From Antedon mediterranea (Eukaryota > Echinodermata > Crinoidea > Comatulida > Antedonidae), in assembly GCF_964355755.1 (NCBI RefSeq), contig NC_092673.1, positions 16,745,001-16,809,000 on the forward strand: DNA of 64,000 bases. The letters are read 5' to 3'. The notes beneath the pieces are model-generated. The model had not been told where the DNA came from, did not search any database, and saw only the letters and a program-made list of their open reading frames with translations. Positions 2,853 to 41,319 of this stretch are shown piece by piece. The first letter of the stretch is position 1; every line of letters begins with the position of its first letter. The position numbers were made by a program, and so were the translations under genes.

Positions 2853-4048
2853 AATTAATTTTTTTTAATAACAATTTTTACCCTGGATTTCTGTATAAAT
2901 GTTATAATGAACTTTGACTTGTATTAATTGAGAATACCTGTTTTTAATCCCACTATCAGAAAGGATTACATAATTGCAGCCAATAAAAATCTAATTCAAA
3001 CCAAATTAATAATAATATGTCTGAGAACTTACTTACAGTAGACAGATTAATTAACAATTGCAAAATGATTTTTTAAGCATTTTATAGCAATTATTTATAA
3101 TAAAAACTAGATTTGAACTTGTCATGGTAATGAGTTAGGCTATTGCACAATGCATTGTAACACACACATACTATTATGTGCAATTGTACGAACAGCATAG
3201 CCGTAGGCTTAATCCATTTCAGTCGATCAAAGGGGTATTTCTACCGTTCAACAAGCGTCAACATTTGACCGTAATAGCATTGTAAACAGTTTAGTTGATG
3301 GTTAGTTTTTATTTTACGCAACTCGCGTTTATTTAAACATTTGAATATGATGACTTTTTCAAAATGAAAAATAAATTCATATGTCTGAAAGATACTTGTT
3401 TGAGTAAATTGGAAGAAAACTGATAAAAATTAAGTAAGGCAATAAGATGATGTAGCTGCTCACAATTAAAATAGTGAGATAGATAGTAGTTTTTGTTTCA
3501 TTATGCAATGATAAATAAAAAAATAAAATTAATGTGAAGTAGGATTGCCCTTCCCATGGATTTATTTTTTCCTTCTTGATATACCTTACCAATAATTAAC
3601 CAGTTTATAGGCCAATAAATAATATTATCAATACTATTATCACAATATAAAATGGCATAGTAGGCCTCTACTAACCAAACGGAGTCTCCCTAATTAGCCT
3701 TTAGTGAAAATTGTTTTTTATACCTAAACAATTCCTTCAAAACACACATTATTATCCTAAAGCACAACATATTATTAATTTGCACTTTTTTTTATAAAGC
3801 TAACATTATTATTATTGGTAATTTGTGAATCTTTATTTTACAGTTTTAATTCTACATGTTATCCTATTTCTTATAGAATTACTTTACATTTACCTACTCA
3901 ATGTGCAAGGTGTCCTTTAAATTGAGTAAATGGCTCAGCCCAGAGATATATAAAGAGTTACAACATTGAATGATTAGAAGCCATTTGTTTATTTTGTATA
4001 GCGTTTTCCTGTAGTTCATGCATTATTTTTAGATCTATGAAATAATGC
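2853..4048. other. Intergenic, no gene recognised
   Basis: AT-rich sequence with only short open frames. No splice-consistent coding segment, RNA gene or repeat boundary was recognised. Confidence 0.5.
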
Positions 4049-4051
4049 TTA

Positions 4052-4978
4052 CGCCCGTATTCTTAAACTGGACTTTAGTCGTAGTTCGAGCTAAAACTAA
4101 AAAAATGACGTCATTTTAATTCATAAACCGAACTTCAACTAAATCGCCGACTAATTCAGGCTAACCTCGACTAAATCGAGACGGATTTTGATCGATTTTT
4201 TTAGTCCTGAAGGAGGCAGGCTAAATGGTCGACTAAATGGTTTTTAAACGATGTTTATAAAAAACGTAACAGTCATTGAGTTGTTATATTGGCCAGATAT
4301 TGAAGAATGAAATATCTATATTTATATTAGCTTAATTAAATATACATTGGTATAAGTTATAATAATGAAAATAATCTTTATTTAGAACTGTATACAAATT
4401 ACATTATTTTCTTCGCGCAAGTCCGACTTGAGCTACGTCACGCCATAGCGACAATGGGAGATGCGGCAATTCACCACGCGATGGAATGTTTAGGGGGCCT
4501 AGCGCTTTCTTGTCACGCTATGAAGTGCGTGGTTCGTCGCGATCATACTTTGTTGGGGGCCTAGAAAATATAAAAGTTACCGTACCGCCGTGGTTCCTAA
4601 ATATATTTTGAAGATTTTATTTGTTGTTAATCAAATATACTTCACTGTTAAATTAATACTGATCTTGTTCTTATAATTAACGATTAAAATTATTTTTCAT
4701 GTATATAGTCCTGATGCGTAAAAAGTGTTGTAAGAAATGGAAAGTGATATCAATGCGCAAAATTTCGTCTGCTCCTCAAATACTCTCTTGTCATTGGCCA
4801 ATGTATAGCCTTTGTTACCCAGACGTGTGCAACTCGACTAAAAGCTCGACTTCATTAAGTCGAACTGCAAACTTCGACTACTTCGTTTTTTAATCGAATT
4901 TGAAGTAATAGCTCGAACTACGACTTTTTCAAGTCGAACTTCGAACTACGACTAAAGTCCGGTTTAAGAATACGGGCG
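4052..4978. mobile_element. Harbinger-like non-autonomous element, copy 1
   Basis: Long inverted ends: CGCCCGTATTCTTAAACTGG at the left and its complement ending AAGAATACGGGCG at the right, followed inward by repeated GACTAAAGTC/AGTCGAACT words. Flanked by TTA on both sides (4049-4051, 4979-4981), the 3-bp TWA-type duplication typical of PIF/Harbinger elements. No transposase is visible. A nearly identical copy sits at 22219-23137 and a lone terminus at 9091. Confidence 0.8.
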
Positions 4979-5863: not shown

Positions 5864-8110
5864 CAGTGTTCTCCCCAGGATTCACATCAAGCGTCATGCT
5901 TCCGTCCCCCGATTTTTGGTAATTGACACCCTAGATGGCCGGAAATTCATGCTGAATGACACCTCTAGTTTGGTCGGAAACGACACTTATAGTGCACTAC
6001 CTACTTTTACGCGATAAGAAAACAATTTTTCGTTCATTACGAATGTCAGGGGGAAGTCCCCAATTTTAAAAAAGGCCTACTCATCAGTAGGACAACTCTA
6101 ATTGGCCGGAAATGACACTTCATAGCGCGTTAGCAAACAGCAAAACGATCGTAGCCTACTTTTTCCGCGGGTAAACATACGCAATAAGAAACATTTTTTG
6201 CGTTCATTACAAACGTCAGGGGGAAGTCCCCAATGACAAAAAATAGGCCTACTCGTCAGTAGAACAACTCTAGTTGGCCGGAAATGACACTTAGCGCGCT
6301 AGCAAACTGCAGAATGATCGTACTGTAGCCTACTTTTTCCGCCGGTAAATATACCCGATAAGGGGGATTAGTTCCCGATGAAATACAGCCCGACTAGTTA
6401 GTAGGACACCTTTAGTTGGCCGGAAAGGACACTTCATTTTTTTGTCTTTTATGGGCTCGTCCCACTTTTATTTCAGTTTGCAGTAAAAATTAAAAACAAA
6501 GGTCATGTTCTCCATTTTTCTTGTCACATGCAAGTGACGCGTACATATTTGTGATTATTGTTAAAACTTGTTTTATTTTAATGACATAGTATATTTAAAA
6601 GTGAATAAAAAAAAAATTTACAATTATTAAAAACATTTACTTATGACCTACATATATATACAAGCATGCTGAATATTGCGGATTTCATATAAATTATTAA
6701 AATTGTCTAGAAACATAATCAAGGGTTACATTTAAAATCACTTGAAATAAAAAAGGGCTACACATTTATATTAAAACTTATACAGCATATGTCACACAAA
6801 TATAAAATACAATTGTAAATCGTAGGGAGAGAGATCTCCAGCACATATATATTTTAATTATTCAATAAGTCAAATATCTTGTCTTTACTATTTTTCCATT
6901 TCTGATCAGCAGTATAAAAGTCATACGAATAGTCATTAGATATGAGGTTTATAATTTCATTTTTAAATAGACCCCAAATATTTGCAGATTCTTTTTTTTT
7001 CTGTCGTTTCTAGTTCTTTATATATTATGGAGGATTTATATACAAAATGTAAAAACTGAAATTAATTCGTTTACAAGTTTGTTTGTTGTTCCCAAAATTA
7101 CATTAACCCACTTTGGGAAGTCTTGCTGTACTGTAACCTCATTTGGAAGACACTGAACCAGCATATCTTTAAGCTTTTTCCAGACTGGTTGAATAGTTTT
7201 ACATGCAATTAATAAGTGTTCTTCATTTTCTATATGATTTTTACACTTATTACATTTGTCTGTTGTGGATAATTTCCATCTTTTTAGTATTTTTTTACAT
7301 ATAAGGATTCGATGTAACAACTTAAAATTAAATTGAGCTACTTTTACGATGTGTTTCATTCTACATACTTTTCTATTCCATATTTCATTCCTGTCAATAA
7401 TTTCATCTCTAAATTCTATTTCCCATTTCATTTGAGGAAAGGACACTTCATAGCGCGCTAGCAAACAGCAGAACAATCGTAGCCTTCTTGATTGGAATGC
7501 AAATGTATGATCGATGCAGCTAGCAAATGAATTGCGCCTAGCAATTTAATTATTTTTTATGGTGTGTGCATACGTAACCGACGAAAGAGTAATTAAATTT
7601 TACCAATCCATAGAGAGTCAATTAATTCAGTGTGGTATTGAAAATATCATTAATAATTTATTTGTTAATGCACATAACATTTTTACAAGAAAATATACAA
7701 TCATTATTTTAACTTTATTTACAATATACAAGTTACCGCATTTTAAACGATTCAGGCAACAGCCAATACTAGAGATCGAAAGAGGAACATGGCAGGAACA
7801 AAACATGAGTTTACATCTCTCGGTGGCGGCCGATGAAAGTGCGTCTCAGTCGCAGTAACATTTTGTTACGCAGTCTTTTGTTTTTCGTCTAGTGGTCATG
7901 TCACGTGTCTCGTATGCATTGGGCACTTTATGCATGCCTCAGCTCTAGAAAGTACCTGCCTGTTATTAATCCATTTTTAGAAAGGTTGTGGTTGATATTT
8001 TTAAGCGTCACGGATAAGGTTTTAAGCGTCACAGCCGACCGTAAAGCGTCACGGCAGAGAACCCAAGCGTCACGATACGGTGACGCTTCAAGGGCCTGGG
8101 GAGAACACTG
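5864..8110. mobile_element. hAT-like element with internal repeats
   Basis: Inverted ends CAGTGTTCTCCCCAGG at the left and CCTGGGGAGAACACTG at the right; CAGTG-type ends are typical of hAT elements. A clear 8-bp target duplication was not found. The left half carries about three diverged repeats of roughly 190 bp with the words GGCCGGAAATGACACTT and AGGGGGAAGTCCCCAA. The right end has four GCGTCACG-type words. A LINE fragment has inserted inside. An ORF at 7559-7858 within it is unrecognised, and no transposase was identified. Confidence 0.7.
6438..7435 (-). mobile_element. 5'-truncated LINE insertion
   Basis: Flanked by a perfect 16-bp duplication GGAAAGGACACTTCAT (6422-6437 and 7436-7451) with a T-run just inside the left copy, as expected of a minus-strand LINE with its 3' end at the left. 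The minus-strand reading (about 7430 down to 7036) has the FNFKLLHRIL segment and a CxxC...H...C cluster matching the zinc-binding tail that follows many LINE reverse transcriptases. The reading frame breaks after that. Confidence 0.85.
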
Positions 8111-8591: not shown

Positions 8592-9699
8592 TTTTTATAT
8601 TATTTTAACAGAATATTTAATTTAACTTTACAGAATTGTGCTTTGTTTTATGACAATTACAGGAATAGCAATACTTTGTTTGGAAATGTTGGTTCATGGC
8701 AACCCAGTTGCATCCATTGAAGTGTTTCTCAACTATTTTATTTTTACAGCAAAAATTGCAATACAATAAAATTACAGATTTTAATTCGAAATTCAGAGGC
8801 TTAAAAGGTAATCTTGGTGAACACTACAAGGGTGATCACTATCTTTTGCTCAAATTCTGCCTATGTTATCACTTACCTTTCATTTCAGGCTTTTCATTTA
8901 ATAGCACATAAATTGTTCAATAAACTTGTGTTAAAATGTTAATATCAAACGTACTAATGTCTGTTGTTGGAGAGTACAAAGGTCACAGAAGTTAGGCTGC
9001 TGAATATCTTGTAGTACTAAGTATATATTGAACGAAACATGTCTGACATGAAAATAAAAAAAGGTGTATTAGCCTGATAGTACAGTGATACGCCCGTATT
9101 CTTAAACCGGACTTTAGTCGTAGTTTGAACTTTGACTTTAAAAAGTGTTAGTTACTGTACAGTTACAGGCTCTAGACCCCTTGATTTCTATGCTACAATT
9201 TACCCAATAAATATAGGCATATTTTGAACTTTAAAGGTCACTTCTTTTTAAAATTGAAAAAATGGATTGACACAATTATTGCGCATCAGTTTTTTGCACA
9301 CAGTATTTTATTTATGCATTATGAAAAATGGAAAAAGTGGCTACCCTAAATCTGATTAAAATTGCCTCAAAAGACGCTAGAACGCGTTGCTTCAAGGGGC
9401 TTCGCCATCTGGACCCCCACCGGGGGCCCTTGGCGGCCCCTCCCTGACACCCAGCCTAGAGAGAGATTAACCAAATTATTAACCAAATAACTGATACGTT
9501 TTTCTGATACTCACAATTGCCTAGAGGGATGTTTTTGCCGTTTTTTTAGGGTGTAAAGTATAGCGGCCAAACTGAATGGGAGCCATTTGTTGTGTATTAA
9601 TTAAAGAAAAGTCATAATTGCCGTTTGGGAAAATGAATCCACAAAACAATGTTTCCAGTTGTTGATCTTTCAATCAATTATTATGAACAAAATAATAAT
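8592..9699. other. Gene A leader intron, first part
   Basis: Contains no recognised exon. It holds a lone terminus of the Harbinger-like element at 9091-9131 (CGCCCGTATTCTTAAACCGG) and a GC-rich repeat-like patch near 9390-9450 (GGGGCTTCGCC, CGGGGGCCCTTGG). Confidence 0.5.
9091..9131. mobile_element. Solo terminus of the Harbinger-like element
   Basis: About 40 bp matching the left inverted end of the elements at 4052 and 22219, then unrelated sequence. This is a truncated relic. Confidence 0.7.
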
Positions 9700-10337
9700 C
9701 TTCATTCAGTAACGCCAGCATACAAGTCATCTTCATTCAGTAACACCAGCATACAGGTCGTCTTCATTCAGTAACGCCAGCATACAGGTCATCTTCATGT
9801 AGTAACACCAGCATACAGGTCGTCTTCATTCAGTAACGCCAGCACACAGGTCATCTTCATTCAGTAACACCAGCATACAGGTCATCTTCATTCAGTAACG
9901 CCAGCATACAGGTCATCTTCATTCAGCAACACCAGCATACAGGTCATCTTCATTCAGTAACGCCAGCATACAGGTCATCTTCATTCAGTAACACCAGCAT
10001 ACAGGAGTCATCTGCATGCAGTAACACCAGCATACATCTCATCTTCATTCAGTAACACCAGCATTTATACAGGTCATCTTCATTCAGTAATATGCAGACA
10101 TACAGGTCATCTTCATTCAGTAACGCCAGCATGCAGGTCATCTTTATTCAGTATCACCATACAGGTCATCTTCATGCAGACGTAACACCAGCATACAGGT
10201 CATCTTTCATTCAGTAACACCAGCATACATGTCATCTTCATTCAGTAACGCCAGCATACAGGTCATCTTCATTCAGTAACACCAGCATACAGGAGTCATC
10301 TTCATGCAGTAACACCAGCATACAGGTCATCTTTCAT
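9700..10337. repeat. 31-bp minisatellite with alternating variants
   Basis: Roughly 20 copies of a unit like TTCATTCAGTAACGCCAGCA followed by TACAGGTCATC. In the first half, AACGCC and AACACC versions alternate almost strictly, giving a 62-bp dimeric repeat. It lies in the leader intron of gene A, just before its start-codon exon. Confidence 0.9.
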
Positions 10338-10394
10338 TCATTTAATGCAAAGGTTTCTGTCTGATGGAATTATGTTTTACATTCATATTTTCAG

Positions 10395-10473: not shown

Positions 10474-13400
10474 ATGGAAAGGTACGTTTTTAACAATTAT
10501 TTCAAACAAAAATAACCAGCTCCAATATGTGTTGATATTATTGAAATATGTAACTATTAAAAACAAATTAAAATGTTTGAATAGTTATATTGACATACTT
10601 TATAATCAGAATTTATAGTTCAAACAAAAAGAAAACACTTTGATTTTAAGATATTCTTTTGAGAAAAATACTTCAAAATTCTTAAAAGATTATAAAATCC
10701 AAAATTATTTCTAATAATTTCCATCAATCATTCTCAATAAATACACGGGTATAAATGGATTATTTCTTACATTTTGACAGGAAACTTTTGGAAGAAGCTT
10801 GGTCAAGGAATGATTTGAAAACAATTAAACAAATCTGTAAGACGCAACCAGGTCTTCTGAAATCTATCAATAAGGTATAAAAACAGATATATTTTTATAA
10901 TATTATCAAAGAAGAAATTCTTTTCATTAAAGTTTAAAATTATAGAGGATGTAATTTTATTTAATAGTTTAAAGCTTTTTTACTTAATGAATTACAATTC
11001 TTTTGCATTATCACACTGATGATGGAGGTATAACCTGCATATACTGATTAACCACATTAGGCTAAAAATAATAATATAAATACACACTGATGATGGAGGT
11101 ATAACCTGCATGTACTGATTAACCACATTAGGCTAAAAATAATAATATAAATACACACTGATGATGGAGGTATAACCTGCATATACTGATTAACCACATT
11201 ATACACACTGATGATGGAGGTATAAACCTGCATGTACTGATTAACCACATTAGGCTAAAAATAATAATATAAATACACACTGATGATGGAGGTATAACCT
11301 GCATGTACTGATTAACCACATTAGGCTAAAAATAATAATATAAATACACACTGATGATAGGGGTATAACCTGCATGCACTGATTAACCACATTAGGCTAA
11401 AAATAATAATATAAATACACACTGATGGGTATGGCAAGCCTCAGCTGTCTGGAGTATTCGAAATATTATATTATTAATAATGTGGTAAACCATTCTATTT
11501 TGTTCTACTCATGTATTAATAATGATAATTATGATTATTTACCACAATATTTAGCAGCAATTGTTGTTGTTTGTATTGACAAAAAACAAACAATTTCACA
11601 TAATGTCTGTTGTCAGTATTTATAAACTTCATTATGATTCCTTTCCAGTTTGGTGACCCTCCATTACATTCATATCTGAGGGATCGTGGATATACTGCAC
11701 CTACCTTAGAAATAGTGACTTGTCTCATTCAGCATGGGGCACCAGTAGCATTGCAAAATAAGGTAAATGTACAGGGATTTGCTAGTGTAGTAGGCTAACA
11801 TTCTATAGATATGCTGTGGTAAACCATTCTATTTTGTTCTACTCATTTATTAATAATGATAATTATGATTATTTACCATAATATTTAGTAGCAATTGTTG
11901 TTGTTTGTATTGACAAAAAAAACAAACAATTTCACATAATGTCTGTTGTCAGTATTTATAAACTTTATTGTGATTCCTTTCCAGGATGGTGACACTCCAT
12001 TACATTCATATCTGAGGGATCGTGTATATACTGCACCTACCTTAGAAATAGTGACGTGTCTCATTCAGCATGGGGCACCAGTAGCATTGCAAAATAAGGT
12101 AATGTACAGGGATTTGCTAGTGTAATAGGCTAACATTCTATAGATATGATGTGGTAAACCATCCTATTTTGTTCTACTCATTTATTAATAATGATAATTA
12201 TGATTATTTACCACAATATTTAGTAGCAATTGTTGTTGTTTGTATTGAAAAAAAAAACAAACAATTTTACATAATGTCTGTTGTCAGTATTTATAAACTT
12301 TATTATGATTCCTTTCCAGTATGGTAACACTCCATCACATTCATATCTGAGGCATGGACACTCTACCTCAGAAATAGTGACGTGTCTCATTCAGCATGGG
12401 GCACCAGTAGCATTGCAAAATAAGGTAATGTACAGGGATTTGCTAGTGTAATAGGCTAACATTCTATAGATATGATGTGGTAAACCATTCTATTTTGTTC
12501 TACTCATTTATTAATAATGATAATTATGATTATTTACCACAATATTTAGTAGCAATTGTTGTTGTTTGTATTGAAAAAAAAAACAAACAATTTTACATAA
12601 TGTTTGTTGTCAGTATTTATAAACTTTATTGTGATTCCTTTCCAGCGTGGTGACACTCTATTACATTTACATCTGTTGAGTGTATATACACCTACCTTAG
12701 AAATAGTGACTTGTCTCATTCAGCATGGGACACCAGTAGCATTGCAAAATAAGGTAAATGTGCAGGGATTTGCTAGTGTAATAGGCTAACATTCTATAGA
12801 TATGCTGTGGTAAACCATTCTATTTTGTTCTACTCATTTATTAATAATGATAATTTGATTATTTACCACAATATTTAGCAGCAATTGTTGTTGTTTGTAT
12901 TGACCAAAAAAAACAAACAATTTCACATAATGTCTGTTGTCAGTATTTATAAACTTTATTATGATTCCTTTCCAGGATGGTAACACTCCATTACATTCAT
13001 ATCTGGGGAGTGTACATAAACCTACCTTAGAAATGGTGACTTGTCTCATTCAGCATGGGGCACCATTAGCATTGCAAAATAAGGTAATGTACAGGGATTT
13101 GCTAGTGTAATAGGCTAACATTCTATAGATATGATGTGGTAAACCATTCTATTTTGTTCTACTCATTTATTAATAATGATAATTATGATTATTTATCACA
13201 ATATTTAGCAGCAATTGTTGTTGTTTGTATTGAAAAAAAAAACAAACAATTTCACATAATGTCTGTTGTCAGTATTTATAAACTTCATTATGATTCCTTT
13301 CCAGCGTGGTGACACTCCATTACATTCATATATGAGGAATGGATATCCACTTACCTTAGAAATAGTGACGTGTCTCATTCAGCATGGGGCACCAGTAGCA

Positions 13401-16400
13401 TTGCAAAATAAGGTAATGTACAGGGATTTGCTAGTGTAGTAGGCTAACATTCTATAGATATGCTGTGGTAAACCATTCTATTTTGTTCTACTCATTTATT
13501 AATAATGATAATTATGATTATTTACCACAATATTTAGCAGCAATTGTTGTTGTTTGTATTGAAAAAAAAAACAACCAATTTCACATAATGTTTGTTGTCA
13601 GTATTTATAAACTCCATTATGATTCCTTTCCAGTATGGTGACACTCCATTACATATTTATCTGAGGAATGAACTTACTAGACCTACCTTAGAAATAGTGA
13701 CTTGTCTCATTCAGCATGGGATACCAGTAGCATTGCAAAATAAGGTAAATGTGCAGGGATTTGCTAGTGTAATAGGCTAACATTCTATAGATATGCTGTG
13801 GTAAACCATTCTATTTTGTTCTACTCATTTATTAATAATGATAATTATGATTATTTACCACAATATTTAGTAGCAATTGTTGTTGTTTGTATTGAAAAAA
13901 AAACAAACAATTTTACATAATGTCTGTTGTCAGTATTTATAAACTTTATTGTGATTCCTTTCCAGTATGGTTACACTCCATTACATTCATATCTGGGGAG
14001 TGGATTTAAACCTACCTTAGAAATAGTGACGTGTCTCATTCAGCATGGGGCACCAGTAGCATTGCAAAATAAGGTAAATGTACAAGGATTTGCTAGTGTA
14101 ATAGGCTAACATTCTATAGATATGCTGTGGTAAACCATTCTATTTTGTTCTACTCATTTATTAATAATGATAATTATGATTATTTACCACAATATTTAGT
14201 AGCAATTGTTGTTGTTTGTATTAACAAAAAAACAAACAATTTCACATAATGTCTGTTGTCAGTATTTATAAACTTTATTATGATTCCTTTCCAGAATGGT
14301 GACACTCTATTACATTCATATCTGTTGAATGTACGTACACCTACCTTAGAAATAGTGACTTGTCTCATTCAGCATGGGGCACCAGTAGCATTGCAAAATA
14401 AGGTAATGTACAGGGATTTGCTAGTGTAATAGGCTAACATTCTATAGATATGCTGTGGTAAACCATTCTATTTTGTTCTACTCATTTATTAATAATGATA
14501 ATTATGATTATTTACCACAATATTTAGCAGCAATTGTTGTTGTTTGTATTAACAAAAAACAAACAATTTCACATAATGTCTGTTGTCAGTATTTATAAAC
14601 TTCATTATGATTCCTTTCCAGGATGGTGACACTCCATTACATTCATATCTGAGGAGAGGAGACCCTACCTTAGAAATAGTGACGTGTCTCATTGAGCATG
14701 GGACACCAGTAGCATTGCAAAATAAGGTAATGTACAGGGATTTGCTAGTGTAATAGGCTAACATTCTATAGATATGATGTGGTAAACCATTCTATTTTGT
14801 TCTACTCATTTATTAATAATGATAATTATGATTATTTACCACAATATTTAGCAGCAATTGTTGTTGTTTGTATTAACAAAAAACAACAATTTCACATAAT
14901 GTCTGTTGTCAGTATTTATAAACTTCATTATGATTCCTTTCCAGTTTGGTGACACTCCATTACATTCATATCTGAGGGGAGGAGACCCTACCTTAGAAAT
15001 AGTGACGTGTCTCATTGAGCATGGGACACCAGTAGCATTGCAAAATAAGGTAATGTACAGGGATTTGCTAGTGTAATAGGCTAACATTGTATAGATATGC
15101 TGTGGTAAACCATTCTATTTTGTTCTACTCATTTATTAATAATGATAATTATGATTATTTACCACAATATTTAGTAGCAATTGTTGTTGTTTGTATTGAA
15201 AAAAAACAAACAATTTCACATAATGTCTGTTGTCAGTATTTATAAACTTTATTATGATTCCTTTCCAGTCTGGTGACACTCTATTACATTTATATCTGGG
15301 GAGTGGATATAGACCTACCTTAGAAATAGTGACTTGTCTCATTCAGCATGGGACACCATTAGCATTGCAAAATAAGGTATTGTACAGGGATTTGCTAGTG
15401 TAATAGGCTAACATTCTATAGATATGCTGTGGTAAACCATTCTATTTTGTTCTACTCATTTATTAATAATGATAATTATGATTATTTACCACAATATTTA
15501 GTAGCAATTGTTGTTGTTTGTATTAACAAAAAACAAACAATTTTACATAATGTCTGTTGTCAGTATTTATAAACTTTATTGTGATTCCTTTCCAGAATGG
15601 TAACACTCCATTACATTCATATCTGAGACATAGAGCACCTACCTTAGAAATAGTGACGTGTCTCATTCAGCAAGGGGAACCAGTAGCATTGCAAAATAAG
15701 GTAAATGCACAGGGATTTGCTAGTGTAATAGGCTAACATTCTATTCTATTTTGTTCTGGTTTACCACATTATTTAGCAGTAATTTTTACTGTATTGTCTC
15801 ATATTATGGCATATCTGCAGCATTGCAAAATAGGGTAATGTAGGCTTACAAAGAATTGTCAGGACAATTTCACATTTTATTGTTATCAGTATTTATAAAC
15901 TTCAACTTCAGTATCAATTAGCCTCCATATTAATCAATAGTATTACTACCTCAAAGAGTAGTATTATTTAATCAGACTTACAGATATAGAATTCTCAAGT
16001 GTTTGATTTTTTTCACATTTTTCTCTTTTTACACAAAGCACATTCTAACAAGTTTGTTTTGATTTAGATATTCATTTATAAGTCAACTATAATTGTAATG
16101 TGTTGTTGTTGTTTTAATATTTCATTTGTATCTGGATAGTATCCAAATATTATTTTCTTTGAAAGTTTATAGTAAAACTATTTGTTGTTTTATATTATGG
16201 CTCAAACATTTTAACACATTTACCTACTGTTCCAAAGTAAACTTTTATTCAATTTATCTCTCTCTCTCTCTCTCAATGTTGAAGGCGGTAGACTATAAAC
16301 AGCAGCGCTTAAGTTTTGGTTTGGATACAGGAGTTATAGGTGGCGCACTGTACAAGTTGATGTCATTTATTGGCAAATAGTAATTTCTATTCACGTCCTA

Positions 16401-19400
16401 ATTTACAACCAATGTTAAAAAATAGTAAATCTACGTGTTATCACATGATGCTCTTTCATCCAATCTCTAGATGGTAAATGTTTGAGCCATGACTGTATGT
16501 ATGTGATGCGTATTAAAGTGTGTTATATTGTATATCAATAATTTCTCAAAAACTACTAAGTAACTACACCCATTTTTTAATAGGATGGAAATACACCTGT
16601 CTCTGTTTTAGAAAGTAACAGGTGGATAGGGTACCAGAGAAAAACTGAAATTTTAAACTTCTTTAAAAGTAAGTGAAGTTTTAATTATTAAAATTTTGGA
16701 ATCAACTAGTTTTCATTACAAACGATAAAGATTTGATTTTTTGTCCCAAATGAAGAAGAATGTCCAGATAAAGAAAATTAACATTTATGATATCATTCAC
16801 AGGTTCAGATGGCAATAGATTAAATAATCCACTGGGATTGTAGTAAACATGGAAGTTGTGATATGTTGCAAGATGTAAAAACCTTATTTTTTATGATTTG
16901 AAAATTGCAAATAAATTAGAAAAATTATTTTGCCATTACGATAAAAATACACAAAAATGCAAACTTTAAAATTCCTTTGAATTAACAATATTGAATAAAT
17001 TTGGCCACACTTTTTTTTTATGGAACGTCATTTTTCACATCAAATCAATCTCTTTATTCATCAATACATCAAAACAATTATACATAAACAAATTAAAGAT
17101 TTGAAGATGAAAGGGACCTCAAAGAAACCCAAAGGGACTTGTGATAAAAGGACCACTATAAGCTAGTTACAAAAAAAACATACAAAAAATAAATTAATAA
17201 AATTAATAAAAATCCTGTATAGACAAATACACGGGATGCGCATTGTTAAGGAATATTTGAACTTTATTAATTGCATATAAATGTAAATGTAGAATATTTT
17301 TTTTTAAATGTAATCTATTATTATTTAAAATATGTATTCGCAATCGAGGCAAACAATTTACGATAGGAGGAGATAAATATTGAATTTAACAAGGCCATAT
17401 AGATGTCTGCAGTCGCTTGCTCAAGTTAGTGTTTACCAACCGACCGACATAGTGAGTTGTCGAGTGGCGTTGCACGTGACTAAAAATCTAATTTTCTTGT
17501 TAATCCCATTTTTTGTTTCCACAATGAATGAATTTTCTTCACATACTTTAAGCCAGCTTAAGAATTCTATTTCTCTGTATGTAAAATTAAGCATCATACA
17601 TAATGTATTTTACCTTGGCTCCTACAATTGTATTATCTTGCAACTTCTTATGCAAATAGGCACAAAATAATAAGTAATATTTGAGCATAAACGCTTAAAT
17701 AATTGTAAAAGTTGTTATAAATTAATGAGCTTTCAGTAGAGTACTTACACACAGAATAATAGAATATTGCATTCATATTTTGTTTCTTTTTCTTCCCAAC
17801 TTGTTGTTACTTTTTTCTGGAAGCCTAGTCTTAAAGTTTTATACTTATAAGGTTTCCTTCCACACATACTATGTTTTATTAATTATTATCTTACATGTTT
17901 ATATAATTATTATTATATGTATTTTTAATATGTGTGGAGAATATTTATTTAATATTTATTGAATATTGCATTTAACGAATTGAATTGAATTGCAAATATT
18001 TATCCTTGGCTTGGTGTAGGCCTACTAAAAAAAGGTTGAGAATACAGAACCAAAACTGATAGTAATGTATGACAAAGTTAAACTTTTATAGTCTAAGGAA
18101 CTTTCTTAGCCAATACATACAAGATTAAACCATTATAGGTAAGAGTTAAAAATCTATTTCAAAGACCCATTCCCTACAATTTTCGACGTTTTGTAAAAAT
18201 AATGCAATATTACTTTAAAAACATTAAACCAGGTTATTCCTTGTCTTAGATGTACGTTTTATGGTAATTTATGATAAAATGAGAGAAAAAATGCACTACC
18301 TAAGTAGCTCGCAGTTTATTTATTATTATAAAGTTTATTAAAATCATTAATAAACTTATATTATATATTTGATACTTTCTGATCGTACCAGACGTAGCCA
18401 TAGCCAGTGGAACAAAGCAATGATTTTTAACCAATAACGAATAATAGAAATAAAGCAATCAATGTTTAAGGATAGTCTGCCTAATTCTGATCCGACAGCC
18501 ACGCTGGGTGTGCTGTTTCCAATGCCTAAAATGAATCTTGAAAAACGTGTCTGTAAATGATCAATTGGTGATAAATTCGAAAAGCCCCATGTCTCACTCC
18601 CGTAAATTAAAATTTGTAAAACTTTGTCAAAAATGTGTTTCCATATATTCTCTGGTAGGTATTGTGTTTTGCTATTAATTGATTGTAAATAGTATGTACG
18701 TTATTTGTTTTTTGACAATTGTGTTCAATTGTGTTATTCCACTGACCATTTGAATTGAAAACCACTTCCAAGTAAGTATACGATTTAACAACTTCCATTT
18801 TAATGTTTATGTAATACCATTTTTCATATTTTCTTAATTTTTCATCTTTTTTAAATACCATTATTTTTATTTGTTTACATTTACACTAAGACCCTATGTG
18901 TCACAAAATATTTCCAATATAATTATTAAATGTTGTAAGCCTTTACTGTGTCTGCGAATAGTAATAAATCAGCAGCATTATTAGCAGATAGTTTATAAAG
19001 CAATCCCCGAATGGTATTTTTTCGTTATTTTGATTTAGCTAGTAATTCATAAATATATTAAATAGAGATGATGGCAGGGGTGACCCTTGTTGTATTCCAA
19101 TTGAACATTCAAATAGGAGCGTTAATAAGTTTCCTATTTTTACATGTGCTAATAATTGGAAACTAAATAATAATATATATGACGTCATATATATTATTAT
19201 TTACGCCTATTCTTCTTAATTTTAATAATAGAAAATTATGCTTTATACTGTCAAGTGCACGTTTTAGATCAACGAAGCAACAAAATATTCTACCCCTTTT
19301 TTTACGTAGATATTTTTTAATTATCCTGTTAAGAATGAAAATATTATCTAATGTGCGGAATCCCTTGCGAAAACTTGATTGTTCTTGTTAAATAATGTTA

Positions 19401-22400
19401 TTGTTTTCAGTTAGTTATTCTAGTGTTAAGGATGTTTAAAAATATTTAAATTAATAACAGTAGTTGTTAACTGTATACATTGTAGTTAAAAATATACATT
19501 ATTATTTATTATAGTATATTCAGAATGAATGATTGCTTGTACACAGTCACCCACAAGTGTTTGTAAGGCTTTGTATCACACAGAGCCTTTATATATAACC
19601 TTATACCATTGAAAAAAAAAGACTTTTAATATAGTGTTTTTTATGAAAATATATAATATGTAATATTTTTGTTTTGTGCATTTTTTTAGATTTACCAAGT
19701 ACTACTGTTGAGCAATTTCAAACACAATTTCAGAAACAGACAAGTGACGAACAGAAAACAAAACTTCTTAAGCCAGAGAGTGGTGAGTTTAAGAATAAGA
19801 CCTGCTGTATGTTTTATGATTGTATCTATATATAATTTAACAGAATTGTGATTAAAATGGGATTTCAGTAAAGAGAGAATTAGATGCTAATGTTATTTAA
19901 AAAATCATTTCTGAGCGGTACTGTAAAAAGGCGAAAAAGTGTGCAACTGATAACAAATAACAAATGGAGAGATTTTATTTATCATAAATAAAACAAACAG
20001 TTGATTGTTTCCATTTAAAATACTGTAATAATGGAATGAAGCTAGTTTGCAGATTTATGTGGCATGCTTGCTTGATTTTTGCTTGATTGTTGATTTTTAG
20101 GTTATATGCATTATCATGCGATCACGCGATGTACGCGCGATTTAACGAAATAACGTTTGTAATCATATCTTCACAAGCATGAATCACTTTTAAACAAAAT
20201 TTGGTACTCATAAATTTCAGGTCGATGTGGTTATGTTTTCACAGTGCGCAATCAAACATTACGTGGTCTACGCGCGATTTAACGAAATCACGTTTGTAAT
20301 CATATCTTCACAAGCATGAATCACTTTTAAACAAAATTTTAAAAATAATATAGATCGTCAGAATGCTCGGGAACACGTATTTTTTATTTCATTTTCTTGA
20401 AGTGTACAGTATGTATAATATGTATGATTTGTTATGAAATTAAGAGAACAAAAGTTGATAAAGTCATCATTAATTGCATTTTAAATTAAAAAAAATTTAT
20501 TTCGACAATCAAAAAATTATGACATTTTCTTAGGCCGAAATAACAAATTTCTTCTTTCAAAATAAAAGTTCATATATTAAAGTTAAAACTATATAGTTTG
20601 ACAGTGCATCGTTTTTTAACATTTTTAAAGATGTCATCATAGTAAAACATTATAATTCATTGCGGTATGTAATAATCTATCTGCGCCAAAGTGGTTACTG
20701 CATAGTAAATACATGGAGGAATCTTTCTACAACTTTTAGTCAGTTGTGTATAGCTCGGTGGTCTGTGCTCGTGTCTATGGCATTTAAGGTACCGAGATCG
20801 AGTCTCACATTGGGAAAGGAAATAAGATTTTTTTTTATTATCCATATTGTTTGTTCAATTTTATTTTTTAGTGTATAGATTATACACATAATTTATAATG
20901 AAATCTATAAAATGTAAGTAATGTCTTTATTATTATGTAACAATGTGGTTTATGACATTATACGCAGAGGGATCTTTGATCGAATTGTGATACCAGCTAT
21001 TGTATTCCCGTTAGCAAGATCCTATATATAAATAATTAAAGATTCTGAGAAAATCAATCAATCAATATATCTTTAAAAATCAATTATCTTTATTTAAATC
21101 AGTGATCTTTATTTAAATCAATGCATATAACCTATAATTCGTCATAGTGACTAATTAAATTCTAGTTTTTTTTAAACTTTATTTACTCCAGATGTTTAAA
21201 AAATCTATTAAAATCTTGATTCAATTTTCAGATATTGCTGCACGTGAATTAGATTTTCAGAAAGCATACAATGAAGCCTTGAAAGATGGATCCGTCCCAG
21301 TCAATCTTGGAATGCTTAAGGTGATTGGACAAGAAGGAGTTGGTAAAACATGCCTCATAAATGCATGTCTTGGAAAGATGTAAGTAGTTGGACAGTAAAA
21401 TTGACATTACAAAATACATGTAGGTACTGCCTAATTATAACAATAATAGATAATAGAATTAAATTTTAACATTGTTTTGTAATTTTAAATGAAAAATCAT
21501 TTTAATTGTTGACTAAATAACTGATTTAAAATGTGTATTTTATAAATAAAGACTATTGAAATAGTAACTATACTGGTATCTATAATTAAAAAGAGAAAAT
21601 TGAATTTTACAGCACTAAAAATGAATGACATTCATTGTTGGTTTCAAATTATTATATTATTATTATATGTATCTCAGATTTGAGGAAGAACATAAAGTTA
21701 CAGATGGCATAGCAGTGATAAGGACTGTAAGCACAACATGGAAAGAGGCTAAAGCTGATAGTGGTAAACATGAATACAAATTAGCATATTACTCTTCCCA
21801 TCATCATAGGCTATGTAACAATATTTATCTTTGATCTCATTATCATAGACACAAACAGGCCCACAATGAAACTGAGATGTAGAATGGAATTCAATAAATG
21901 CATACAACTGTAGTATGATACAGCAATTGTTACTCTATGATCCCTTAACACACAAGCTATTGTTTGTTGATGTACTGTAATTGTAATTTTACTTTAAATA
22001 ATCAATCAGTTAAAGTATTGTCACCTATTAATGTATCTGCTGAAATAATACGTACAAATGTCTTTTTTCTGTACAGGTAATCCTTCAAAACAGTATACAA
22101 AAATCGTCACTGACAAACTGAGAGAAAAGAAACCCAAAGACGTATGTCAATAATAGTGTAATGAAAACATAAAATGAATAAAGTAGCACCTACAGGACTA
22201 TTGCAAACCAGACACTTACGCCCATATTCTTAAACCGGACTTTAGTCGTAGTTCGAGCTAAAACTGAAAAAATGACGTCATATTAATTCATAAACCGAAC
22301 TTCAACTAAATCACCGACTAAATCAGGCCAACCTCGACTAAATCAAGACGGATTTTGATCGATTTTTTTTAGTCCTGGAGGGGGCAGGCTAAATGGTCGA

Positions 22401-25400
22401 CTAAATGGTTTTTAAACGATGTTTATAAAAAACGTAACAGTCATTGAGTTGTTATATTGGCCAGATATTGAAGAATGAAATATCTATATTTATATTAGCT
22501 TAATTAAATATACATTGGTATAAGTTATAATAATGAAAATCATCTTTATTTACAACTGTATACAAATTACATTATTTTCTTTGCGCAAGTCCGACTTGAA
22601 CTATGTCACGCCATAGCGACAATGGGAGATGCGGCAATTCACCACGCGATGGAATGTTTAGGGGGCCTAGCGCTTTCTTGTCACGCTAGGAAGTGCGTGG
22701 TTCGTCGCGATCATACTTTGTTGGAGGCCTAGAAAATATGAAAGTTACCGTACCGCCATGGTTCCTAAATATATTTTGAAGATTTTGTTTGTTGTTAATC
22801 AAAAGTACTTCACTGTTAAATTAATACTGATCTTGTTCTAATAATTAACGATTAAAATTATTTTTCATGTATAGTCCTGATGCGTAAAAAGTTTTGTAAG
22901 AAAATGGAAAGTGATATCAATGCGCAAAATTTCGTCTGCTCCTCAAATACTCTCTTGTCATTGGCCAATGTTTAGCCTTTGTTACCCAGACGTGTGCAAC
23001 TCGACTAAAAGCTCGACTTCATTAAGTCGAACTGCAAACTTCGACTACTTCGTTTTAGAATCGAATTTGAAGTAATAGCTCGAACTACGACTTTTTCAAG
23101 TCGAACTTCGAACTACGACTAAAGTCCGGTTTAAGAAACAGTATACAAAAATGGTCACTGACAAATTGAGAGAAAAGAAAACTATAAACGTAATGTCAAT
23201 AATAATGTAATAAAAACATATAAAGTATTAGTACCTACAGGACTATTGCAAACCAGTCACTTAGGGTTTCTTTCTAAATGAATCAATGAGGCATTATGAT
23301 TCTTTTTCGATCATTTTATAATCCAATTTACTTAAAAAATTAAAGTTGATTTTGCTTTTGAGAGTAAATAATATTAGTTTTCTCTTATATTAAATTGTAA
23401 ACAATACTGTATTTTACTTTGAATAAACATTTGTTTCTTTTTTATATCCATTTATTTTTTTTTTTTATGTGTCAGATTGACATGAAACCACCTATAGATG
23501 ATGATGAGGATGGTATTGTTGTTAATGACAACAAAGGTGATTACAAAAATGAAGGTATGTAACTTTCCATTAAATTCTAATTATTATTACTAGATGGCAC
23601 GCTCGCTTCGCTCGCGTACCATCTAGGTCGTGCCCACAGATGGTTCTCGAATACACAGTCATTTCAGCGTAACAAAACTGGCGATTTCAAATGTACGTAC
23701 CGCAGGACTATAATACATTGTCATTTACAGAAACGAATAAATAGACACGATGATTTATGTAGTCAGCTAAAATTAGCACCCTGGGAATTACTTCCGAAGG
23801 AGAAACTTATTACAAATGAGTCCAAATTTTTGATTTGGACTCATTTAAAGAAACCCAATTTGTGTTTTGTATGTAACATATTAGGGTTGAGGGATGGGAA
23901 AGCGGATAGGTACAAAGAAGAACAATTTTTAAATATATTCTTTATCCACTCAGTAACGAAATATTTTGTTCATGTTTTATAGGCCTATAAATAATATACC
24001 TCTAAATACAGTAAAACATTTGCGATTTAATACTTGTTAAAACTGTCACTGTCATAATCGATTGAAATATTAAAGTACATGTCACGATACACCACTACGA
24101 CGTTTATATTATTGGTAATTATTAATTAATACAAACGTTGAGAAGGAACTGTCAGTATAAAGTTTATTTGTATATAGTAATGTGTTTATATATCTAACAG
24201 TAGAGCCTATCCACAATCTCAGTAATAAAGTTTATTTGTTCATCATCATCATCATATCATCACAGTACGAACATTCACAGTAAGAAATGTTCGATTCAAA
24301 TGAGGACCGAAAATAGTTTATAGGTATTTACAGTACAGTATTGTCAAAGTATTGCAAGTTTATTCTCAAAGGGCCCATATATTTACCTACCGTATGTGTT
24401 AAACCAAGGACTCATCAATTTACCTACTTGTGTTAAACCAAACTTTGGCAGACTGAGAGATTGGGATGTTCCATTCATCGCAAATCAATACATTTGTATA
24501 ATCGTATATTAAATATATCAAAATAGTATTTTTTTAAAGAAAATCGGCCTGTCTTCAACATTATGATGCTGTACTCTAGCTGTTCAACCGGTTTTCAGCT
24601 ATTAAAAACAATTATCGTAGGAAGAGATAGGAAAATGCGAAGCCTCCTCGCATTTTTGTGGCGGGTATTTTTTCAAGACGGACATCCATTAGACAGTGTA
24701 TACCACGATCTGAAAAACCCCTATTTGGGGCAAATCGTTGAACCTAAATTTGTTTTAATCGTCAATAACTAATTATCTAACTTAATTTAATTAGTAAACA
24801 GGGTTACATCAGGTGGTTAAAATCAGTACCGAAAGTACGAACCAACTTTACATACCATCGAGTAAAAATTCTAGAAGTAAGGCGCGATTTACCGAATTTT
24901 GTCCTTACGTAAATTTATATATAGATTATATATTACATAGCCTATGTAAATACGCGAACGTGATTGGTTGAAACTGCATCACATGACTACCGCTGCGAGG
25001 ATAGTAAATCGTATATATCCTCGAGAACGATGATATTGACTGAGTAATTTTCCCGTAATTATCGTGTCCCCTGTCATTAATCATATAAATTATCGAGTAC
25101 GATGATATTGACTGTGTAATTTTTGTGTGCAACATTCGCGTTTGCCGATAAATAAACAAAAGTCATCTACTGGGTCTTGAACTCGCGATGAAATTGTCAC
25201 TCCATCACAAGACAACGTTTCATGCGCTGCGCCACACGGAACTTGCTTGAAGAAATTACTCAACTAAACTATTTAAACTATGCATACATAGCGCCCTCAT
25301 TTATTTTTAGTCCTCCCAAGAGGTGTTGAAACACCGTTTGTGATTGGTTAATACTCACAGTAGTATCGGGTACGCGCGCGACGCACTGAACATCTGGTGA

Positions 25401-28400
25401 TGATTCGACTCGAAAGAAGACGAATTATTATTTATTCGGCCTACCTGATAATATTATTATTATTAATGTAGGCTTATTGATGGAAATTCTTCTGTTATTA
25501 TTTAAACGACCTAGGCTAGTGAATATGTTATTTTCAAGGAATCATTAATTAGTAATTATCTGTATATTATTCTTCGAAAGGTAAGGTGTCTGGGCAGCTT
25601 GTTTACATACAATACAAAAAGGAGGCCTACCTAGCCTAGCTACCCGACCCAGCAGATATTCTACTTATTGTAATATAACAGATATCGCCTTTTATATCGG
25701 TAAAATATAAGATTAGACATCCCCTCGGGAATGATATTAAGTTCTTGGGAATTATATATTCCCTCGAACATAATATCATTCCCTCAGGGATGTCTAATCT
25801 TATATTTAAGCTCTAAGCAGTCAATATCTGTATAATATTACATTTTTTGTAGTCAAAACACTAATTTGCAATTATCTGTTTGCAATTTCTGTCATATTAA
25901 GTTTGTGCTGTAGTTATTTGAAACAGATTATTAATTAGATTTTCCAATTTAAAGTAACTTTTAATTTTTCTATAAAATTATTAAATTTATGTGATCAGAG
26001 TTGGAGGTAAAGCAACCTATCAAGTGTAACAATTATGGTGACATACTTTTCTACCTCTACTCTGACAACAATGATGACAACAATGATGACGACAATGATG
26101 ACGACTCGGTGTAACAATGATTATGAAGACTGCAATGATGATAATGACAACAATGATGACGACTCGGTGTAACAATGATTATGAAGACTGCAATGATGAT
26201 AATGACAACAATGATGACGACTCGGTGTAACAATGATTATGAAGACTGCAATGATGATAATGACAATTACAACAATGATGATAATTAGAACAACTATAAC
26301 AATATGTTAATGACTTTTACAATGATTAAAATAATGATGCTTGTTTACATGTGTTGAGAGTGACCAAATTGTGTTTCCACTACAGATACTGATAGAGCTA
26401 CTGAAGCTATTCCATTTGATACAGATCAGCAGTTAGATAAAGATGTAATCAAGAAACTTGAGGAAAAAAAGGAGGACCCCTTGGAAGAAACATTTAACAT
26501 CTGGGATCATGGAGGTCAATTAATATACCATGGTATACATCGCGTAAGTTATAATATATGTATTTGCCTTGAAGTTAATATTATATTGAAATTGTTTAAA
26601 TACTTTGTACACAGCCAGTTAAAAGAAAATGTCTCTGTCTAACATAATGGTATGACCAAGGTTTAATTTGTTCATTCAGTAATCGCAAAATTCTTTCCAT
26701 GGTACTGCTTTATATAAATTGTTATTACAAATTTTGCCTACGTCAACAAAAAAAGTATTTTCAGTAACTGTTTTCAATCATAACTTATTTTAACAGTGTT
26801 ATATGAATTTGTACTAGAAAAATGCTTTAATAAAAAGATTATCAATAGTAAATGTATAAACACAGTTTATAAAAAGACAAATAAAATGATACTTATTTAT
26901 TAAGCTTTAAAGCATATTAATCAAATATTTGAATAAAAACAAATTGTGTTTTTGCAGATGTTCATGACATTACAAGCACTTTATATTGTAGTGTTCGACC
27001 TAAGTGTAGACCTCAATGATCCTGCTGTTTATATTGATTCCAATGGAGTAAGTAGTTTGCTATATATTTTATGCATTACAAAGAGTTTTATTTCATACCT
27101 TCCAAATGAGCTGCATACATTTACATATTTGAAACCTAACCATTTTTTAAAAAATTTTTGGTTAGAAATCATTTACTTCTTCATTTCATTTTAGTTGAAC
27201 AAAGATAAAATGTTTTTTAAACTTTTTTTTTTTTTTTTACAGGAAAAGTGTGAACATCATTGGACCAATCTCCAGTTCATATTATCTTACATCCTGTCAG
27301 TTTATTCTCATAGTCGTATTGTGAAAGAAGATGAGGAGAATGAAGTTAACAAACCAACTATCCTTATTGTGGGTACACATAAGGGTAAGCTTGGTAAGAC
27401 TGAAAAAGAACAAAATGATGAGGTAATCTATTTCTATAGCTATCTTAAAAATTACCTAAAAGACATATTACTGCTCTAAAAATATGAAGATACTTTATTA
27501 ACCAACTTTATATAGGTATATAATAATAACAAAATTTTAAATATTATTTTAAATAAATATATATGTATATTACATTTTATAAACTTTTTGCAACCAGGCA
27601 AATATCATTTTTGAGAAGGTTCAAGATGTGCTTAGAGGAAAACTGTATGAAGAACATATCTATCAATATTTTGCCATTGAAAACAGCCGAGAAACAACAG
27701 ATAAAAGCTTTAGTGATCTCAAAGAGGTTATTGAAAAGTTTATGGCCACTTTAGAAAAAGATGTTCCTTTAAAGTGGATGCGTTTTCGATGTGACCTTCA
27801 AGACCTCAGAAGGGAAAAACATTTTTCTTTGTGTCCTTTAGAAGAGGTAAACTTTATTTTGTAACCACATTAATAATCTTACTTTGAGCATTACAACTGA
27901 ATTAATAGTTCCATGTTCTGCCACAGTGTATTAATCAGAGGAACTCTACACCCAAATGTATAGAAAACTCGGATTTCAAAATCTGAGTTTACTAGTTTCA
28001 TTCTGACCACTGAAATGGACCGATCCATTATTAATCGGAGGGATTATAAAAATACATTATACCTTTTTATAAACATTTCATTGCAGTATTAATGTTATAA
28101 GTTAGGATTTGCAAAATTTTATTAATTTAATACATTCGTCTCAAAAGTACAACAATAAAATAGACATGAGAAACAAACATTGCCACATGGTAAGCTGCAA
28201 TATTACTCTTTCATATTGAAAAATGGTATATAGTACTGATTAGATTTCTGTAAAGACAGTCTAATTTGAATGGATATAGAAACAATTTAGGAATGGAGAC
28301 TTGCATGAGAAAACGGTTTAACATCTATAGTGCTTGCTTCTTCTATATTATCTAAACTGAAATACCAAATAAATGTATATCTACCATGTTTTAAAAACTG

Positions 28401-36549: not shown

Positions 36550-36761
36550 CATGGACATTCTATTCATACAAATATTAGACGGCGTTAAAGTGTTGAAAAC
36601 TGGTACCAGTACAATCTACCTGTTAACTCTTTTATCTGCAAATTGAGTAGTGATTTGGTTGCGATGTAATGTTAACATGTCATATCTCAATGTACAAAAG
36701 CGTAGATGTTTAGAAATTAAAACACACTAGTTATCCAAAAAAAAATATCTGTCCCCTTATA

Positions 36762-37377
36762 ATAGGATTAAATCAACTATTTGGCACTCTCAAACGTGTC
36801 CCTGTCCCTTTAATAGGGTTAAATCAACTATTTGGCACTCTCAAACGTGTACCTGTCCCTTTAATAGGATTAAATCAACCATTTGGCACTCTCAATAGTG
36901 TACCTGTCCCTTTAATAGGATTAAATCAACCATTTGGCACTCTCAAACGTGTCCCTGTCCCTTTAATAGGATTAAATCAACCATTTGGCACTCTCAAACC
37001 TGTCCCTGTCCCTTTAATAGGATTAAATCAACCACTTGGCACTCTCAAACGTGTCCCTGTCCCTTTAAAAGGGGTGTCCCCTGATTAGGAGTTGGCTGTA
37101 GTGTTAAAACATATATTTCCCCTCGTTTTATGAGAAAGTGTCCCCTGAATGGCCCCGGGTGTACTAAAGAAGGGGTTTACTCCAGTAGTAAAGAGGAGGG
37201 GTGTGTCCCCTGAATAAAGGTGTCCTAGAGAAGGGGTTTACTCCAGTAGTAAAGAGGAGGGGTGTGTCCCCTGAATAAAGGTGTCCTAAAGAAGGGGTTT
37301 ACTCCAGTAGTAAAGAGGAGGGGTGTGTCCCCTGAATAGGGGTGTCCTAAAGAAGGGGTTTACTCCAGTAGTAAAGT
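36762..37377. repeat. Two minisatellites, 51 bp and 61 bp
   Basis: 36762-37075: about six copies of a 51-bp unit (CCTTTAATAGGATTAAATCA, TTTGGCACTCTCAAACGTGT). 37137-37377: about four copies of a 61-bp unit (AAGGGGTTTACTCCAGTAGT, AGGAGGGGTGTGTCCCCTGA). Both share GTGTCCC, so one may derive from the other. They follow the gene A 3' end. Confidence 0.85.
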
Positions 37378-39693: not shown

Positions 39694-41319
39694 ATCATCT
39701 CACAGTGTGTTGATTGACTTGGTACTGTAGACCATTCACTGTGGCTGCTGTGTACAATCTCACAGTGTGTAGATTGACTTGGTACTGTACACCATGCACT
39801 GTGGCTGCTGTGTACAATCTCACAGTGTGTTAATTGACTTGGTACTGTACACCATGCACTGTGGCTGCTGTGTACAATCTCACAGTGTGTTGATTGACTT
39901 GGTACTGTACACCATTCACTGTGGCTGCTGTGTATAATCTCACAGTGTGTTGATTGACTTGGTACTGTACACCATGCACTGTGGCTGCCGTGTACAATAT
40001 CACAGTGTGTTGATTGACTTGGTACTATAGACCATGCACTGTGGCTGCTGTGTACAATCTCACAGTGTGTTGATTGACTTGGTACTATACACCATGCACT
40101 GTGGCTGCTGTGTACAATCTCACAGTGTGTTGATTGACTTGGTACTGTACACCATGCACTGTGGCTGCTGTGTACAATCTCACAGTGTGTTGATTGACTT
40201 GGTACTGTACACCATGTACTGTGGCTGCCGTGCACAATCTCACAGTGTGTTGATTGACTTGGTACTGTACACCATGCACTGTGGCTGCCGTGCACAATCT
40301 CACAGTGTGTTGATTGACTTGGTACTGTACACCATGCACTGTGGCTGCTGTGTACAATCACACAGTGTGTTGATTGACTTGGTACTGTACACCATGCACT
40401 GTGGCTGCTGTGTACCATCTCACAGTGTGTTGATTGACTTGGTACTGTACACCATTCACTGTGGCTGCTGTGTGCAATCTCACAATGTGTTGATTGACTT
40501 GTAGACAGGTTCCATTTCTCAAAAAACGGCCTAGAAAACGAATCAAGAAGCATTTTTGGGTAGAAGCTGGGATCCACTTGGTTTAGGATATTTCGACCTC
40601 GCTGATTACGAATATGGCGGATCCCAAGCGAAATTCGGCCATCTAAGCCCTTAATTTGCATAATTAAAAATGGCGGCCATTTTTTATAATTACCCTATAT
40701 CTCGAGAACCACTAGTCACAGATAATTAATTTTGGTGTCAAAATGTTTTAAATATATGGTTTTATATTCACTTTAATGACACATTTTCTCAAAAAATTGA
40801 TGCAAGTCGTATTTCTGACATTTTGACCTTTGACCTTGATTTATCGTATCTCAGTAACCAATAATCGGAGAGACACGAAATAGGGCTCAAATTGTTCAGA
40901 AACTATACATTCATATTTATTATAATGAAATGTTTTTACAAAAAATGGCCGATTCTACAACTATTGACCTTTGAACTATTAGTCAAATATAATAATATAA
41001 TAATAATATAACTTTGAAAATTGTGGTCTTATGAATTTTTTTTTCTTTTTAAATTGTTTAAAACATGTGTGTTTCTATCCAGTCTAATGGCATATTTTGT
41101 ACAAGAATGGCCGATAGTATGGTTATTGACCTTTTAACTACAGCATAGGCCTACTGTATACTAAATATAATATAATTGCATAACTATGAAATTATTTATA
41201 CACAATAATAATTAGTAACATTATAAAATTCACTGCCATCAAATATGATGTGTTATGATTTATATAGATTTAAAAAGGAATTTGAATACGCAAGTTACAT
41301 TTTTTGAAATTTGAAATTT

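Follow-up and report, generated by a model that had tools for sequence, protein, structure and literature searches.

Human DAPK1, a ROCO protein, consists of an N-terminal kinase, ankyrin repeats, Roc-COR, and a Death domain, and its repeats are canonical and not known to be hypervariable. Dscam of arthropods carries Ig domains whose exons are chosen in a mutually exclusive manner with the help of docking sites. ROCO genes of the brown algae Ectocarpus and Saccharina encode leucine-rich repeats (LRRs) on single 72-bp, phase-2 exons, with selected sites on the concave face and with splice variants, according to the accessible part of PMC11378527, which also names DAPK1 and cites Zambounis et al. 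2012 on the brown-algal LRR-ROCO genes. Fungal ankyrin NLRs, such as Pa_3_8560 of Podospora, have selected sites in the hairpin/loop and the inner helix of their repeats, and the metazoan frequency of such highly conserved repeats is put at 0.8% (accessible part of PMC4986451); a 2025 paper (PMC12222747, likewise in its accessible part) cites a single sea-urchin NLR whose LRRs are highly conserved. The subject here is an array of thirteen ankyrin exons in the crinoid Antedon mediterranea, located in a 64,000-nucleotide stretch of RefSeq assembly GCF_964355755.1 (contig NC_092673.1, positions 16,745,001 to 16,809,000 of the forward strand), referred to below as the window and numbered from its first letter. 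With a probability of roughly 0.58, this array acts as a variable arm for recognition in an ankyrin-Roc-COR protein that may also carry a death effector domain (DED), and it has been homogenised by exchange among its units and diversified by selection. All exons described lie on the + strand.

The thirteen exons, spanning 11649-15700, were found by reading of the sequence, repeat finding, and a splice-site script, and each encodes a single ankyrin repeat (11649-11762, 11985-12098, 12320-12424, 12646-12753, 12976-13083, 13305-13412, 13634-13744, 13966-14073, 14295-14402, 14622-14726, 14945-15049, 15269-15376, and 15596-15700). Their lengths of 105, 108, 111, or 114 bp (35-38 codons) are all multiples of three, those of the introns are not, and both exon ends are in phase 0 in all thirteen. 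The acceptor ATTCCTTTCCAG is present at every array exon and the last 12 bases before the exon are identical in 13/13, with donors GTAATG (seven exons), GTAAAT (five), and GTATTG (one). The joined repeats match Pfam Ank at an E-value of 9.6e-56, and five of them have ankyrins and DARPins as their best solved relatives. The 12 internal introns, 218-222 bp long, differ from one another by a mean of 2.66%, compared with 12.5% for the exons. A preliminary description of this DNA, which had proposed thirteen single-repeat, phase-0 ankyrin exons separated by near-identical introns, is confirmed on both counts.

The first exon of the array form (10755-10874) was identified by translation and encodes an ATG and an ankyrin N-cap, 40 amino acids in all, ending in a phase 0 donor. 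It matches the N-terminus of the paralogue P0004 at 62% over 34 amino acids and, weakly, the Anneissia protein P0015. The start at ATG 10755 fits but is not certain, as the acceptor-like AG that ends at 10781 leaves room for a further exon upstream. Past the last array exon, comparison with the array units revealed a decayed 14th unit, or half-unit (about 15704-15902), which retains an intron start (98% over 41 bp), a remnant of the exon 3′ half (78% over 51 bp), and an intron end (88% over 40 bp), and is far more diverged than the other 13. A closing half ankyrin repeat exon (16584-16668; phase 0 in, phase 1 out) follows and matches the paralogues P0088 and P0004. An Rfam scan of 10700-17000 gave no matches and a tRNA scan with the bacterial setting gave no genes. 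The intron that immediately precedes the ankyrin exons holds a minisatellite array with a 71-bp unit.

All 13 repeats are distinct at the protein level. Variation at residues 1, 3, 5, and 8 and in a helix-helix loop of changing length, as described earlier, is borne out, with six, three, two, and three states at these residues across units and a loop that differs by whole codons. Residues 12, 16, and 17 equal or exceed residue 1 in variability, residue 11 has three states, and at residues 28, 31, and 33 two or more units depart from the rest. The comparison of dN/dS across the exons with intron divergence, suggested in the preliminary description, was carried out by the pairwise Nei-Gojobori method on all 13 exons with codons aligned by hand. 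The ratio was 2.77 over all codons, 10.0 at codons 1, 3, 5, and 8, 4.0 at codons 11-18, and 1.5 at the remaining codons. Because unit pairs are not independent, counts of sites are safer than pairwise ratios. Outside the loop, 17 of 69 replacement sites are variable versus 18 of 219 intron columns (Fisher p 0.001; columns with at least 10 bases, out of 223 aligned), and the synonymous sites (2 of 21 variable) agree with the introns, which therefore serve as a neutral measure.

A second comparison set exons 1-12 against the 12 introns. No array intron follows unit 13, which therefore does not enter the intron counts. Codons 1-12 were more variable than introns (p 6e-8), and none of 207 intron triplets had more than three forms, versus four to seven forms at codons 1, 12, 15, 16, and 17; all of these five except codon 1 lie in the hand-aligned loop stretch, and codon 15 is present in nine units. 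The third base is invariant at codons 1 (always T), 3, and 5, despite the six, three, and two codons found there. The excess of amino-acid change, which falls on the start of the repeat, the first helix, and the helix-helix loop, points to diversifying selection in the first half of the repeat. The combination of homogenised introns and excess amino-acid change that had been proposed is thus supported, with the excess confined to codons 1-18.

Exchange between units is indicated by the four-gamete test, which failed in 82 of 153 informative site pairs when loop codons 11-18 were left out, in 30 of 55 pairs within introns only, and in 17 of 28 of the latter without the poly-A tract. Three alleles occur in none of the intron columns, which makes it unlikely that repeated mutation produced these failures. 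Intron distance and exon distance between units are unrelated (rho -0.06), and the units are most likely mosaics that have exchanged short stretches. Order-dependent duplication was rejected, since neither intron nor exon distance shows a trend with distance along the array (Mantel p 0.30 and 0.83).

The variable residues may lie on the binding face, as had been proposed. By alignment, exon residues 1, 3, 11, and 12 correspond to DARPin positions 3, 5, 13, and 14, which are randomised in DARPin libraries, and what are presumably DARPin positions 2, 26, and 33 are constant or nearly so in the array. Placement on the binding side is presumed from these ankyrin and DARPin positions together with the fungal sites in the accessible part of PMC4986451.

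The array shares its reading frame with a complete Roc-COR gene. The full gene model has 32 exons, is open over 1451 amino acids, and encodes, in order, the N-cap, 13 ankyrin repeats, the half repeat, a linker, Roc, and COR, followed by a tail that weakly matches DED. The linker exon (19690-19782) matches the paralogue P0139 at 94% over 32 amino acids. Eight exons follow for the Roc GTPase, at 21232-21379 (with the P-loop GQEGVGKT), 21678-21763, 22077-22141, 23476-23554, 26386-26543 (with DHGGQ), 26958-27047, 27243-27422, and 27598-27846, the border between Roc and COR being approximate. COR comes directly after Roc, on exons 28460-28648, 28783-28965, 29221-29529, 29625-29696, and 30332-30548, and the C-terminus is encoded by exons 33921-33977, 35698-36240 (weak DED), and 36494-36519 (stop TAA). 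Once the two small Roc exons, the third and fourth of the eight, had been added, the last 856 amino acids of the model were identical to the public Antedon mediterranea protein P0001, with 0 differences from the first residue of P0001 through the COR and C-terminal exons.

Pfam scans covered nine returned homologues, 19 of the open frames of the window, and joined pieces. Roc was matched at 1e-13 (52 bits versus a cut-off of 27) and COR-A at 2.4e-12 (47.4 bits versus 35.3), while neither NACHT nor NB-ARC gave a match at E <= 1 in the array or in the 866-amino-acid spliced part after it, which besides Roc and COR gave weak generic P-loop (AAA) matches only. As Roc and COR-A exceed their cut-offs and NACHT and NB-ARC found no match in the parts scanned, membership in the NLRs was rejected. 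By its domains, the gene is a ROCO gene of ankyrin-Roc-COR type whose product would be expected to bind and hydrolyse GTP, and the earlier label of an NLR-like sensor gene can refer only to a possible similarity in working. Of seven sequences, the window exon and the tails of six paralogues, five matched DED at E <= 0.1 (best 1.3e-4), and the paralogue P0009 has an N-terminal DED above the cut-off (45.5 bits).

A homologue search with the downstream part scored 7997 candidates and returned, among the matches listed, at least 18 proteins, at least 14 of them from Antedon mediterranea and one from Anneissia japonica. A further search scored 8000 candidates, and P0088 was the only protein named Antedon among the best 120 of 1831 matches. 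This paralogue starts with MIPFQ, which is the translation of the last 15 bases of several array introns, and continues with two array-type repeats, a half repeat, the linker, and Roc. P0004 has a cap, two repeats, a half repeat, and Roc-COR, and in P0015 of Anneissia ankyrin repeats likewise stand ahead of Roc. The structures of P0088 and P0004 speak for the array belonging to the Roc-COR gene, the predicted joining being that of gene models.

A candidate alternative first exon (18462-18552; 30 codons plus one base, donor GTAAAT, phase 1) was located by its match to the paralogue P0003. Positions 18462-18551 match the first 30 amino acids of P0003 at 87%, and the N-terminus of P0010 is the same as that of P0003. 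Joined in frame to the linker exon, it would yield an isoform that lacks the array. The family comparison included 23 Antedon models among those returned, a few of them perhaps fragments of a single gene, and for 19 of the 23 the longest contig listed has 36,192,472 bp, presumably one chromosome. In P0139 a DED-type tail runs straight into a linker and Roc, and P0004 contains two Roc-COR units. These structures suggest that neighbouring ROCO genes are read together, either by read-through or through annotation error in a cluster.

Compared with the brown-algal LRR-ROCO genes, the Antedon gene likewise has Roc-COR with N-terminal repeats encoded one per exon and all in one phase (13/13 in phase 0); family expansion and a proposed role as immune receptors, as set out in the accessible part of PMC11378527, were counted as shared, and selected sites on the concave face, described for the algal genes, are presumed for Antedon. 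The Antedon repeats are ankyrins in phase 0, whereas the algal ones are LRRs on 72-bp exons in phase 2, and the same source, as far as accessible, places the algal genes mostly on different scaffolds and gives LRR-ROC-COR as their sole domain structure, with no DED. With the fungal ankyrin NLRs the gene shares similar repeats within one gene and a putative receptor-type protein, and by alignment to DARPins its presumed selected sites may be comparable in position. The fungal proteins have a NACHT switch instead of Roc-COR, and repeat-number polymorphism has been demonstrated for them, whereas the Antedon array is seen in one assembly (PMC4986451, accessible part). The Antedon repeats are on average 76% identical (range 63-94%) by a procedure other than that of the fungal paper, below its level of >85% over at least 100 amino acids, and the last 20 repeat residues reach a mean pairwise amino-acid identity of 92%. 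The analogy with fungal NLR repeats that had been drawn is supported.

Like DAPK1, the Antedon protein combines ankyrin repeats, Roc-COR, and a death-fold module, in its case a DED match below threshold; DAPK1 differs in its N-terminal kinase, Death domain, and canonical repeats. The protein of the other crinoid found, Anneissia japonica LOC117112651 (P0015; 40% identity over 59% of the query region), shares the cap, the ankyrin repeats, and Roc but has canonical, diverse repeats and no homogenised array. Arthropod Dscam clusters are similar as tandem duplicated exons of one phase and differ in encoding Ig domains rather than ankyrins and in their docking sites, none of which are shown in the Antedon array. 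Titles and abstract openings among the matches listed from the open-licence literature contained no crinoid or other animal ROCO array of hypervariable, one-repeat-per-exon ankyrins. The Antedon gene unites the ROCO switch of the brown-algal genes with the ankyrin repeat of the fungal NLRs.

As a recognition arm, the array would be spliced to Roc to form one solenoid of 13 repeats plus caps, whose concave side may bind a protein that is non-self or altered-self. This contact would then switch the Roc-COR GTPase, and the DED-like tail would recruit a partner in cell death or inflammation. The alternative first exon could make the array-less form, possibly a regulator, and new arrays may arise by unequal exchange among units, perhaps also among paralogues.

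Several observations weigh against this reading. P0001, the public model of the same gene, starts inside Roc and omits the array, and a simple pattern found ankyrin-like motifs in 3 of the 23 Antedon models (P0004, P0088, and P0142, the repeats of the last being canonical), so the array form may be produced seldom or never. Codons 19-38 change less than the first half of the repeat, yet their dN/dS of 1.04 gives no sign of constraint, with 7 of 60 sites variable, the level of introns (p 0.21-0.22), and with single-unit changes among four of the six variable residues. The dN/dS values are weakened by the non-independence of unit pairs and the manual loop alignment, and the open frames are weak evidence, since the probability of no stop is 0.62 at the intron rate (5.2% of changes lead to a stop) and 0.06 when each of the 54 inferred exon changes is treated as random. 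Enrichment of variable residues at DARPin-randomised positions was not significant (p = 0.06). The DED match of the tail is below threshold (6.6e-4, 20.3 bits versus a cut-off of 35.9), and the PDB matches of a seven-sequence tail profile, two weak ones, included no DED.

The omission from P0001, the lack of ankyrin motifs in most paralogue models, the intron-level change at codons 19-38, and the limited weight of the open frames would also suit a decaying or unexpressed leftover, with a working gene that starts at 18462 or inside Roc and exons that drift as a tandem repeat; the decayed unit at the 3′ end of the array and the many other tandem repeats of the window fit as well. Drift would bring the exons to the intron level throughout, yet codons 1-12 exceed it, dN/dS reaches 10 at codons 1, 3, 5, and 8, the splice sites are intact in 13/13, and the exon lengths are multiples of three. 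A leftover is considered unlikely, although the array may have been under selection earlier and have fallen silent recently. Plain relaxed constraint as a full explanation was rejected on dN/dS, replacement-site counts, and codon-versus-intron counts; codons 19-38 do fit it. A recent burst of unit duplication, in which a local mutational hot spot or tracts imported from paralogues take the place of selection, would agree with the young introns (2.7%) and mosaic units, but synonymous change would be expected too, yet the third base does not change at codons 1, 3, and 5 and, outside the loop, synonymous variation is close to that of introns, and such a burst is judged very unlikely.

Diversity might instead be used within the individual, if alternative splicing of the array exons yielded many isoforms per gene by combinatorial inclusion, as reported for brown-algal ROCO genes; the preliminary description had proposed combinatorial splicing in the manner of Dscam. 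Symmetric phase allows exon skipping, all 13 exons have it with near-equal splice sites, a candidate alternative first exon exists at 18462, and splice variants are described for brown-algal LRR-ROCO exons (accessible part of PMC11378527). Tandem duplication alone also yields phase symmetry, and the one intron that was folded was no more stable than shuffled sequences (z -0.12). If the exons were chosen in a mutually exclusive way, only one repeat would remain, and one repeat is not enough to build an ankyrin solenoid. Because the introns are near-identical copies, no unit-specific docking pair is evident, although no search aimed at docking pairs was made. Dscam-like splicing thus found no support, and isoform diversity of this kind is regarded as somewhat unlikely.

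Other features of the window include many minisatellites with units of 31-89 bp, some of them in introns of the ROCO gene, at 1-2846, 9698-10340, 11012-11427, 31931-32900, 34582-35105, 36749-37376, 39697-40501, and 44681-45254. One of the two copies of a 925-bp direct repeat of 97% identity (4048-4970 and 22215-23137) falls in an intron between Roc exons of this gene. An inverted repeat of about 1.2 kb and 95% identity (40545-41747 and 43455-44647), flanked by direct 60-bp tandem arrays, looks like a mobile element or a palindromic duplication. A long protein kinase-like open frame at 50640-51488 (+; Pfam PK_Tyr_Ser-Thr, 2.1e-25) shares 26% identity with the kinase of P0014, an Antedon protein of kinase-Roc-COR-Death structure. 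Near the window end, an open frame at 63078-63755 (+) contains a ZU5 domain (2e-20), and the rest of its gene may lie outside. The open frame at 7039-7545 (-), with a zinc-binding reverse-transcriptase match (zf-RVT, 3.5e-7), is likely a retroelement remnant.

A broader proposal, put forward tentatively and at less than even odds, is that these genes form an animal receptor family that evolved independently of those of brown algae and fungi. Both inside single genes and across the genes of a cluster, one-repeat ankyrin exons ahead of a ROCO cell-death switch would be copied, shuffled, and diversified, giving each individual its own cytoplasmic binding surfaces, and a second promoter would supply array-less partners. 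Since the array is missing from the public protein P0001, such arrays may escape annotation. If the array is expressed and varies between individuals, Antedon would possess an animal ROCO receptor that resembles its brown-algal counterparts in construction and the fungal ankyrin NLRs in its evolution, and three lineages would have converged on one design. ROCO GTPases, known from LRRK2 and DAPK1, could then switch a diversified sensor, and the shuffling of repeat exons would become testable in an echinoderm.

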